This document shows, one piece after another, positions 26,865 through 31,075 of a stretch of 34,758 bases of DNA. This DNA comes from an uncultured bacterium (GTDB lineage: Bacteria; Armatimonadota; JACIXR01). Every line of letters begins with the position of its first letter. Within the stretch, counting starts at the first letter, position 1. The notes beneath the pieces were generated by a model that saw nothing but the letters and a program-made list of their open reading frames with translations, did no database searches and had not been told where the DNA came from. The position numbers were made by a program, and so were the translations under genes. The stretch spans positions 1 to 34,758 of the forward strand of contig CALITO010000020.1 in the NCBI GenBank assembly GCA_938041455.1. The letters are read 5' to 3'.

Positions 26865-28286
26865 ATGCCCCTCTATATTTATAACACGCTCACAAACGAG
26901 AAAGAAGAATTTATTCCCCAGATCGAGGGAAAGGTTCGCATATATTCTTGTGGTTTGACTGTGCAGGGCTATGCTCACATCGGGCATATAAGGGGAGCGG
27001 TGCTATTTGATGTGATAAGGCGGTTTCTCAAAAAAGAGGGTTACGAGGTCACATATGTTCAGAACTTCACCGATATAGACGATAAGATAATAGCAAAAGC
27101 TAATCAAGAGGGTGTCCCACCTCAGCGATTAGCGGAGTATTTCATATCCGCATACTTAGAGGACGAGGAAGCAATGGGAATTGCCCCCGCCGATTTCTAT
27201 CCTCGGGCTACCCACCATATAAAAGAGATAATAGAGGTTGTAGAGACACTTATTAGGAAAGGCTATGCCTATGTAGTAGATGGAGATGTCTATTTTTCCG
27301 TTGAGCGGTTCCCCTCCTACGGGAAACTCTCGAGGAGATCTTTAGAGGAGATGATGGTTGGGGCAAGAGTGGAAGTTGATGAGCGGAAGAGGGCACCCTA
27401 TGACTTCGCCCTTTGGAAATCGGCAAAAGAAGGAGAACCTTTTTGGGAAAGTCCCTGGGGGAAGGGGCGTCCTGGCTGGCATATAGAATGCTCTGTTATG
27501 TCAATAAAATACCTCGGTGTCCCTTTGGATATTCACGCAGGTGGGCAAGATTTGATCTTTCCCCACCATGAAAACGAGATAGCCCAGTCGGAAGCTTTCA
27601 CAGGGCAAACCTTCGCCCGCTATTGGCTACACTGGGCACCCGTTAACCTGAGGGGGGAGAAGATGGCTAAATCAACGGGAAATGTCTTCATAGTGCGTGA
27701 AGCTTTGAAAGAGTTTTCTCCCCAAGCCCTCAGATTGTATCTTCTCTCCTCCCATTATAGAAGTCCAATAGATTTCGATGAGGAGAAAATCAGGGAGATG
27801 GAAAGGGCGCTTGGACGAGCAGGGGAGGGGGAGGAGAAATTGGATATAGCCCTAAGGGATGAAGCTAACTATGGGGAGGGGATGATAGAGCCTCCGGATT
27901 TGGAAAGCTTCAAAAAGCAGTTCTATTCCTCCTTGGGGGACGATTTCAATACGCCGAAGGCGGTAGCGACCTATTTTTCCCTTGCCCGTGAGGCAGGTAG
28001 AATAGCTGATGCCCTCCTGCCAAAACCCCCTGTGTCAACCTTGATTACCCTCTGGCGGATTAAGAGCCTTCTTAAAGAGTTCAAATGGGTTTTGGGAATA
28101 GAGAGAAAAGAAGGGGAGAAAATGGAGATAAAGGGATTTGTTGAACTGTTAGTGAAGGTGAGAGATAAACTGCGCAAACAAAAGCTATTTGAGATAGCCG
28201 ATGAAATAAGGAGCGGATTGGGCGAGCTGGGGATTGTGTTAGAAGACCATCCCCAAGGCACAGTCTGGCGCCTAAAGGGAGAATAA
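26865..28286 (+). CDS. cysS: Cysteine--tRNA ligase
   Basis: 473 aa, standard length. The class I HIGH motif is at residues 38-41 ('AHIGHIRGAV') and KMSKS appears as 'KMAKS' (266-270). Zinc ligands are Cys29, Cys209 ('WHIECSVMS') and the 'FPHHENE' histidine and glutamate. 'QNFTDIDDKII' and 'IHAGGQDLIFPHHENE' are diagnostic for CysRS. The usual 'CGPTVY' reads 'CGLTVQ' here, a mild departure next to the active-site zinc cysteine. It starts 6 nt after the isomerase-like gene without an obvious Shine-Dalgarno, so it probably depends on translational coupling. Its 3' end overlaps the convergent methyltransferase gene by 15 nt. Confidence 0.96.
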   Translation: MPLYIYNTLTNEKEEFIPQIEGKVRIYSCGLTVQGYAHIGHIRGAVLFDVIRRFLKKEGYEVTYVQNFTDIDDKIIAKANQEGVPPQRLAEYFISAYLEDEEAMGIAPADFYPRATHHIKEIIEVVETLIRKGYAYVVDGDVYFSVERFPSYGKLSRRSLEEMMVGARVEVDERKRAPYDFALWKSAKEGEPFWESPWGKGRPGWHIECSVMSIKYLGVPLDIHAGGQDLIFPHHENEIAQSEAFTGQTFARYWLHWAPVNLRGEKMAKSTGNVFIVREALKEFSPQALRLYLLSSHYRSPIDFDEEKIREMERALGRAGEGEEKLDIALRDEANYGEGMIEPPDLESFKKQFYSSLGDDFNTPKAVATYFSLAREAGRIADALLPKPPVSTLITLWRIKSLLKEFKWVLGIERKEGEKMEIKGFVELLVKVRDKLRKQKLFEIADEIRSGLGELGIVLEDHPQGTVWRLKGE

Positions 28287-29207
28287 ATCGGGGCCGGCGA
28301 AAAGTTTTCCATAGAGGGAGGGGAACGCCTCCCTAAGTCTTCTTTCCGCTAATCTAACATATTCCTCGTTTATTTCATAACCTATATAATTCCGCCCGCT
28401 CCTCAGCGCCGCTATAGCGGTCTGCCCACTACCCATAAATGGGTCCAAAATAACTTCCCCTTCAAATGTATAAAGCTGGATAAGCCTGTAGGGCAACTCA
28501 ACAGGGAAAGGAGCAGGATGCCCTACTTTGCTGGCGGCGGCAGCTGGGATGTTCCAGACGCTCTTTGTGAATTCCAAGAACTCCTCTCTCGAGAGCGTGC
28601 TTCTTCTCCTATAAGGATTAGCCCGGCTAAATATCCCTTTGGAAAAGACAAGTATATATTCGTGAACATCCCGTAGAGTGGGGTTTTTCGGAGATAGCCA
28701 GCTTCCCCAAGCTGTGGAAGGGCTACCACTTGACCCCTTGTTCCATATCACCTCTCCTCTCATAAGGAACCCTAACTCTAACATATCCTCTATAAAGAAG
28801 GTATGGAGGGAAATGTAGGGTTTTCTCCCGAGATTAGCAATGTTTATGCAAGCCCTTCCCCCGGGCACCAATACCCTCTTGACCTCCTTCCATACCCTTT
28901 TCAGGAACTTTCTATACTCTTCTAAGGTAAGGTTTTCGTCATATTCCTTGCCTACATTGTAGGGGGGTGAGGTAACCATAAGGTGGACGCTGCTGTCGGG
29001 AAGCTCAGACATATCCTCACTTGATTTGCAGAGGATTTTGTTGAGATATTGGGGAGGAATGGGATTCTCAATATATTGCATCTTCTCTTCCCGGGGTAAT
29101 CCCTCATATAACCTGCTGGAATAAAAGGGGGTAGAGTCGTGGTTTATCCTCCCGGGTGAACCAAAGGCACTTGTCTTTGTGCCCCTTCTTTTTTTATCGC
29201 TCCTCAT
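28272..29207 (-). CDS. DNA (cytosine-N4 or adenine-N6) methyltransferase of a type II system
   Basis: 311 aa from ATG 29207. Motif order is that of a beta-class enzyme: the catalytic motif IV 'TSPPYN' (residues 79-84) comes first and the SAM-binding motif I 'DPFMGSGQTA' (255-264) near the C-terminus. 'VLVPGGRACINIAN' and 'GRNYIGYEINEEYVRLAERR' are further motifs. S-P-P-Y favours N4-cytosine methylation, though N6-adenine is not excluded. All motifs are intact. Alternative starts are ATG 29213, which overlaps the upstream gene's stop, and ATG 29225; GGGAGG at about 29215-29221 best suits 29207. The companion restriction gene just upstream is broken, so it may now act as a solitary methyltransferase. 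Confidence 0.87.
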   Translation of the reverse strand: MRSDKKRRGTKTSAFGSPGRINHDSTPFYSSRLYEGLPREEKMQYIENPIPPQYLNKILCKSSEDMSELPDSSVHLMVTSPPYNVGKEYDENLTLEEYRKFLKRVWKEVKRVLVPGGRACINIANLGRKPYISLHTFFIEDMLELGFLMRGEVIWNKGSSGSPSTAWGSWLSPKNPTLRDVHEYILVFSKGIFSRANPYRRRSTLSREEFLEFTKSVWNIPAAAASKVGHPAPFPVELPYRLIQLYTFEGEVILDPFMGSGQTAIAALRSGRNYIGYEINEEYVRLAERRLREAFPSLYGKLFAGPDLFSL

Positions 29208-29209
29208 CT

Positions 29210-29712
29210 TCATTCCTCCCTCCATAGGTCAACCCATCTTTTATAGGGGTTAAAATCTACTTTTTGCCTCTGCCAAGGAATAGGGATACTCCTTGTGCCA
29301 GGGTCTTCTAATAGCGAGGACATCGCTTCTTTGGATATTTCAACTCCTCGAGGGTTTGTCCCAGTTTTGGGGAGTTTGATATATCTTTCCCTTCCAAGTT
29401 TTTCAAAGACTTTGAGTTGAACAGGTAAAGGGATCCAATATAATCCACCCACAGCACCCCAGGCGACTCGGACGAGCAGAATATCGCAAGAGGTTGTCCA
29501 AAAACTTTTACATCCACTTCAGGCTCGGTAATGGGTAAACCTGTTTCCACATTTTCTTCACCGAATCTGTAAATAAAGCAAGGCGATCATTATTCTTTCC
29601 CTTAAAGAACCCACCTCCATTCCTGTCTGTCCTTCCCTCCTGCTTTCCAGCTCCGCTAATTGAAAAAGCAAGGGCAAGCGCCTTTTGATTTTCTCCACAA
29701 GCTTTATATCAT
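29210..29712 (-). pseudogene. Frameshifted type II restriction endonuclease, ThaI-like
   Basis: Three reading frames join into one coherent protein. From about 29712 down to 29558 the frame reads 'VEKIKRRLPLLFQLAELESRR...MEVGSLRERIMIALL', then meets a TGA. One extra T near 29575-29577 moves it to 'FIYRFGEENVETGLPITEPEVDVKVFGQP'. A second break near 29488-29491, probably with lost codons, leads to 'SCDILLVRVAWGAVGGLYWIPLP', continuing to 'NPRGVEIS' and 'FNPYKRWVDLW' at the stop. 'EVDVK' is a plausible PD-(D/E)XK-type core. From memory these phrases match the ThaI (CGCG) restriction family. The start also looks damaged: ATG 29712 follows AGGAGAG but runs into TAA after one codon. Its end touches the methyltransferase start. 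Confidence 0.6.
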
Positions 29713-29771
29713 TGAAACTCTCCTATGTAATGGGGCATTGGTAATATTTTTTATAACTAACTTCATTCTCT

Positions 29772-29812: not shown

Positions 29813-31075
29813 ATGAGAAGAGTCCTGCTTATCTTTTCCCTATTTATTCTGTCTTTCTTAGCCTTCACTACAGGGTTTACCTTCTATTTCCACCTCCATA
29901 ACCTCGTCTTCCCCAATGTAAGGGTAGGGGGAGCGAATTTGGGTGGGCTTTCTCTACCAAAGGCTAAAGATCTCCTTGAGAAGATGAATAGCGAGAGAAA
30001 ATGCATATTGAGGATGGAAGAAAAGGATATGGAGTATAAGTTTAGGGAAATAGGATTATCCTATGATGTAGAGAGGATTTTGCGTTCCGCTTTTGAGATA
30101 GGGAGAAAGGGGTGGTTGGAAACTTTTAAGGAAGCCTGGATTTGCTTGAGCAGAGGGATTGATTTGGAGGTGGGGGTGAAATTGGACAAGAGAAGATGGG
30201 AAGGCTTCATTATGAAGTTGCGAAGAAAGGTAGATAAACCGGCGGTTAACGCCCGCCTGATCGTGGAAGAGGGGAGAGTTGTGGGAATTACAAAGGCGAA
30301 GGAGGGATATGAGGTGGATGAGAAGAGGCTCTTGGAGAGGTTAAGCGAAGCGAAAAACGGGAGCATAAGGCTCCCAGTGAAAGTGCTTTCGCCCAAGGTC
30401 AAAGAGGAAGATTTAGAGGGATTGGAACTCATAGGAGAATTCACCACTTCCCTCAAACGCTCCTCCTGGGGAAGGATTGAGAACATAAGGAAAGCCGTCT
30501 CCCCCATAGATGGGACGCTTCTAAACCCCGGGGAGAAATTCAGCTTTAACGAGAGGGTAGGACCTCGCATCACAGAGAAAGGTTATAAGATAGCTCCTAT
30601 TATGGTTAGGGGCGAGCTCGTGCCTGGGGTGGGTGGAGGAGTGTGTCAGGTTTCAACGACGCTTTACAACGCCGTGCTTTTGGCGGGCTTGAAGGTGAAC
30701 AAGAGAGGACATCATGCAAGACCCGTGAAGTATATCTCCCCTGGAAGAGATGCTACGGTCGTTTGGGGTTATATTGATTTGGTCTTCTCCAACGATAAGG
30801 ATTACCCTATATACATTCAGGGAGAAGTAAAAGGGGGGAAATTGACATTTAGAATATTCGGGAGAAAGGACTTTGAGGAGATAAAGGTCTTTAGCGAGGT
30901 GGAAAGGAAGGCGGATGGCACGATAATCGCTAAGACATACAGGGTGATAAATACCGGAAAGGAGAAAAGAACAGAACTTATTTCCACCGACATTTATAAA
31001 CCCCTGCCCAAGAAGATATCTTCCCCACTTTCTTCCAGATCATCTTCAGCGGACGGCGAAGAAAGCCCGGACTGA
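29813..31075 (+). CDS. VanW-family cell-envelope protein with peptidoglycan-binding-like domain
   Basis: 420 aa. An N-terminal membrane anchor (RVLLIFSLFILSFLAFTTGFTFYF) is followed by a PG_binding_4-like region (~40-190). The VanW core spans ~205-350: 'GEFTTSLKRSSWGRIENIRKA', 'DGTLLNPGEKFSFNERVGPR', 'GVGGGVCQVSTTLYNAVLLAGL' and 'YISPGRDATVVWGYIDLVF'. The strictly conserved G-G-G-x-C-Q-V-S-T-T is intact. VanW proteins are cell-surface proteins named from vancomycin-resistance clusters, but most lie outside such clusters and their biochemical role is not established; no vanHAX genes are here. The final ~70 residues include a small beta domain and a Ser-rich tail. The gene stands alone with its own promoter. 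Confidence 0.9.
   Translation: MRRVLLIFSLFILSFLAFTTGFTFYFHLHNLVFPNVRVGGANLGGLSLPKAKDLLEKMNSERKCILRMEEKDMEYKFREIGLSYDVERILRSAFEIGRKGWLETFKEAWICLSRGIDLEVGVKLDKRRWEGFIMKLRRKVDKPAVNARLIVEEGRVVGITKAKEGYEVDEKRLLERLSEAKNGSIRLPVKVLSPKVKEEDLEGLELIGEFTTSLKRSSWGRIENIRKAVSPIDGTLLNPGEKFSFNERVGPRITEKGYKIAPIMVRGELVPGVGGGVCQVSTTLYNAVLLAGLKVNKRGHHARPVKYISPGRDATVVWGYIDLVFSNDKDYPIYIQGEVKGGKLTFRIFGRKDFEEIKVFSEVERKADGTIIAKTYRVINTGKEKRTELISTDIYKPLPKKISSPLSSRSSSADGEESPD

Follow-up and report, generated by a model that had tools for sequence, protein, structure and literature searches.

Remains of a ThaI-type restriction gene beside a whole methyltransferase gene in an uncultured member of the Armatimonadota

A broken restriction gene and its methyltransferase neighbor

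The analyzed window, a stretch of 34,758 nucleotides, carries on its reverse strand the pseudogene of a type II restriction endonuclease of the ThaI family (PF15514), here called R (29210..29738), followed by an intact gene for a DNA methyltransferase of the N6_N4_Mtase type, its ThaI-type partner, here called M (28272..29207). The pair is inserted between two open reading frames of the forward strand, cysS on the left (26865..28286) and, on the right and divergent from R, a gene at 29813..31075 that is presumably VanW-like. M and cysS are convergent and their 3′ ends overlap by 15 bp (28272-28286).

The R remnant extends from a plausible ATG at 29738-29736 (M-P-H-Y-I-G-E-F...) to a TGA stop at 29212-29210 and was delimited by profile matches, a structural match and alignment with two relatives, the congener G002 and G039 of the same phylum. 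PF15514 is matched in three separate reverse-strand frames between 29213 and 29722, at profile positions 2-53 (E = 4e-15, 56.5 bits), 45-80 (E = 2.5e-10, 40.7 bits) and 108-203 (E = 6e-36, 124.4 bits) of 203, all above the curated cut-off of 25 bits. The final 80 residues, in the C-terminal piece, give an end-to-end alignment to chain 3NDH of the ThaI crystal structure (E = 7e-27). The match to the ThaI family is real and far beyond chance. The original prediction had joined three frames into a ThaI-like restriction enzyme, and each of these frames now matches PF15514 independently; a translated search against restriction enzyme families thus places the pieces in a nuclease family. R is a pseudogene of a PF15514 member and no longer a working one, and it is the sole PF15514 copy in the 2.2-Mb, 97% complete assembly.

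Three lesions interrupt R. The first is a small indel of 1-2 bases in GAG-TTTC-AAT-GAT (29709..29719, reverse strand), recognized from the frame translations and by comparison with the E-I-F-x-D of relatives. It lies around 29715-29719, about 20 bases after the ATG at 29738, and the frame from this ATG comprises only 9 codons before a TGA at 29711-29709; the damaged start that had been proposed is thereby explained as a frame break just past a plausible start codon. The second lesion, also foreseen, is one extra T in CTTTATT, which alignment to G002, G039 and further intact relatives, together with the frames, locates in the TTT at 29575-29577 (reverse strand); the A-L-L-I-Y-x-F-G-E frame is lost and an early TGA comes next. 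At the third position, a break had been suspected near 29490. A break is indeed present, but it is no point frameshift: the gap against intact homologs marks the junction of a 103-bp deletion (29478..29496, reverse strand, best placement 29487/29488), such that the stretch from E83 to D131 (numbered as in the L015 frame) has 41 bases compared with 144 in intact genes. Relative to the intact protein, roughly codons 96-129 are missing, and the WTVD block and the invariant lysine of SxK go with them. Among the residues lost are S96, K98, T99, K109, W112, T113, V114, D115 and F122, each of them present in 63-65 of 65 intact homologs, and in total about 14 near-invariant residues are gone. With regard to the active site, E85 and D87 are kept while K98 and the WTVD block, near-invariant in intact homologs, are deleted; E85-x-D87 ... 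S-x-K98 is the putative active site, as suggested by the PD-(D/E)xK pattern and the invariance of the residues.

M was assigned by PF01555 (E = 1.7e-50), the PADLOC model MTase_II PDLC03350 for type II methyltransferases (6e-136), synteny and start spacing. Its frame is open over 317 codons, reaching up to 29225, and motif IV (TSPPY, residues 85-89 of this frame) precedes motif I (DPFMGSGQT, residues 261-269), in agreement with the earlier description of an intact methyltransferase with both motifs. The start at 29207 (MRSDKK...) is more likely than that at 29225, since its distance from the R stop is conserved. In the window and in ten intact loci, the junction of R stop and M start points to the 3′ end of R, GGAGGGAGGAA (29213..29224, reverse strand, encoding W-R-E-E), as the likely ribosome-binding site of M, with GGAGG as the putative binding sequence. 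In 98 near-invariant columns M has two departures (P139S and F226I), both at positions otherwise fixed; this is within the range of 73 homologs, which mostly have 0-1 departures and up to 5 when whole. M also matches the cytosine-N4 methyltransferase 8s9n in the PDB and, from this match and the SPPY motif, is likely an N4-cytosine (m4C) enzyme.

The restriction-modification pair in other genomes

In a survey with one genome per species, 80 ThaI loci were found in many bacterial and archaeal phyla. A relative of M, mostly 60-80% identical to the window M, adjoins R in 79 of the 80 loci, and in the remaining one the contig breaks off just beyond R. The R-M pairing is therefore canonical, and in the usual layout M lies downstream of R, its start following immediately on the R stop. 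Of the 80 loci, 10 have a broken R, 7 of them with M whole; the opposite state, a whole R with a broken M, occurs in 2, one of them with masked bases; some single breaks among the 80 loci may be sequencing errors. Programmed frameshifting was considered and rejected, as no slip site is shared by the breaks in other genomes, which fall in differing sequences. Four of the ten broken ThaI genes elsewhere (L076, L084, L086 and L092) are broken near codons 128-137, two of them in G runs; this cluster probably reflects homopolymers and a search bias, an intact C-terminus having been required by the search. R and M are whole in G039 and G012, both of the window's phylum; they are adjacent in G039 and lie on different contigs in G012 (L012 4180-5043 and L227 1738-2643; G012:C80 and C132), apparently as a split R-M pair, although mis-binning is possible. 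A close M without R or an R remnant was found in none of 61 genomes, the R of G012 sitting on another contig. Mobile carriage of the locus was also considered, and no match was found on plasmids. Relatives of M do occur on a few IMG/VR contigs; two of these, classed as viral (L229 and L232), encode methyltransferases 74% and 82% identical to the window M.

Within the genus, G002 carries the R-M pair at the same site, between cysS and the VanW-like gene. Its R has a 116-bp deletion over nearly the same core as the window R and is split in addition, and in its M the frame is broken once, near codon 220. The two M genes are sisters in the M tree (100/93), and the two core deletions of R overlap and end in the same codon. 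In the congener G001, cysS directly adjoins the VanW-like gene, so that the site is empty, and a separate, wrecked ThaI R-M copy lies elsewhere (L010 5428-6313; G001:C3, about 45430-46310), in which M is without its middle and R is broken. The G001 R keeps part of the core missing from the window and G002 R genes, and R was therefore destroyed at least twice in the genus.

ThaI cleaves CG^CG, and by homology to ThaI the specificity of both R and M would be CGCG. The observed/expected ratio of CGCG is 0.41 in the sampled genome and 0.40-0.45 in sampled stretches across the genus, 0.33-0.44 in genomes with an intact ThaI and 0.59 in one control without ThaI. These values give no clear sign of a CGCG-avoidance footprint, since many palindromes show the same or a stronger depletion and the G+C content differs between the genomes.

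Timing of the loss and possible explanations

Synonymous differences between the window and G002 are close to saturation (pS 0.70-0.85). The pN/pS of the R remnant in this comparison is 0.249 (0.185-0.323) and that of M 0.148 (95% 0.112-0.191), with cysS at 0.138 and the VanW-like gene at 0.313. Of 48 near-invariant residues outside the deletion, 45 are still present in the window R remnants, and the identity of R relative to that of M is inside the range of intact pairs. From the pN/pS of the remnant and the residues kept, we infer that selection acted on R during most of the time since the window species and G002 diverged, and that R was lost lately. Since R died so recently, the state of M dates from the time of a live R, and the conservation of M is no evidence for a function independent of R. 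The original prediction of a solitary methyltransferase thus stands insofar as the genome has no whole PF15514 R, but the conservation of M is too young to speak for an R-free role. M may nevertheless come to have a lasting role as an orphan.

We consider it highly probable that R has been freshly killed while M is whole and very probably active, most likely as a CGCG m4C methyltransferase, so that the locus represents a solitary methyltransferase that arose in place and is very young. In this reading, a ThaI-type operon, with R first and the start of M directly at the R stop, would have been present between cysS and the VanW-like gene in the ancestor of the two species. In the window species, R would recently have been killed by the 103-bp deletion of the SxK/WTVD part and the two small frame breaks, and no useful form of the R protein would be made. 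M would still be translated from its own ribosome-binding site and likely methylate its target, CGCG if it is ThaI-like. Without R, foreign DNA would not be cut at the target site and M would not be needed for protection. R would be expected to go before M because loss of R is harmless while M works, whereas loss of M is harmful while R works. The roughly 500 bases of untranslated R remnant in the RNA and the lost translational coupling from R to M could lower the expression of M, and the fate of M in G002 and G001 suggests that the window M will decay too.

In a different reading, which we regard as unlikely, R had already been lost in the ancestor that G002 shares with the window species, and selection for an epigenetic function has since kept M as a domesticated orphan. 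M is constrained, the shared end codon of the overlapping R deletions would fit a single, older loss in that ancestor, and CGCG-modifying m4C orphan methyltransferases do persist in Nitrososphaera (group HG12, PMC10609329). However, the R remnants are constrained as well, hence R stayed alive over most of the divergence; M carries a frameshift in G002 and is without its middle in G001, and the 61 genomes are without any close M free of R or an R remnant. We give equally little weight to the idea that one shared core deletion disarmed R in the two-species ancestor and that selection has since then retained M, perhaps together with the R remnant, as a CGCG m4C epigenetic mark; if true, the genus would show methyltransferase domestication in progress.

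That errors of sequencing or assembly account for all breaks and that the organism owns a working ThaI-type system appears very improbable. Lesions 1 and 2 are indels of 1-2 bases, one of them in TTT, the R remnants still look constrained, and broken R-M genes are often mimicked by sequencing errors (PMC3488263). However, lesion 3 is a loss of 103 bp from the most conserved part of the protein and therefore not a base-calling error, and the R copies of the two congeners are broken in other ways. Due to the core deletion and this different wreckage, sequencing error is ruled out as the whole explanation, and the real decay that had been predicted is upheld. Retention of the R remnant for a non-cutting role, as a catalytically dead DNA-binding fragment or in the regulation of M, deserves next to no credence: the flanks are conserved while the core is lost in two species and the likely ribosome-binding site of M sits in the R 3′ end, but neither in the window species nor in G002 are the flanks connected by one open frame, and the window R frame from the ATG has only 9 codons.

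Comparison with known systems

Solitary methyltransferases are common, and their origin is debated. The window locus is a concrete case in which R was lost first and in place. The genus offers a staged series, from the window (R dead, M whole) through G002 (R dead, M frameshifted) to G001 (both wrecked), plus an empty site, and this series suggests that M then tends to follow R into decay rather than becoming domesticated. The kind of decay is already known; the staged series is the point of interest.

The nearest known system is the ThaI R-M system of Thermoplasma acidophilum (PF15514, 3NDH). The window locus resembles it in the family match of all three R pieces, in the alignment of the C-terminal 80 residues and in the methyltransferase that lies beside R in relatives, and differs from it in that its R is a pseudogene, from which the SxK/WTVD block is missing. 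The orphan m4C methyltransferases of Nitrososphaera HG12 (PMC10609329) are like the window M in having no active endonuclease, and base type and target would be the same if our assignment holds. In contrast to these persistent lone genes, the window M still has the dead R attached and the loss is recent. In the loss of R and the keeping of M, the locus is also like the solitary methyltransferases and decaying R-M systems described before (PMC4176335, PMC3488263). A pan-genome survey found that solitary methyltransferases rarely arise by decay of complete systems (PMC4176335); while such decay in place is held to be rare, the window locus is an individual case of exactly this decay.
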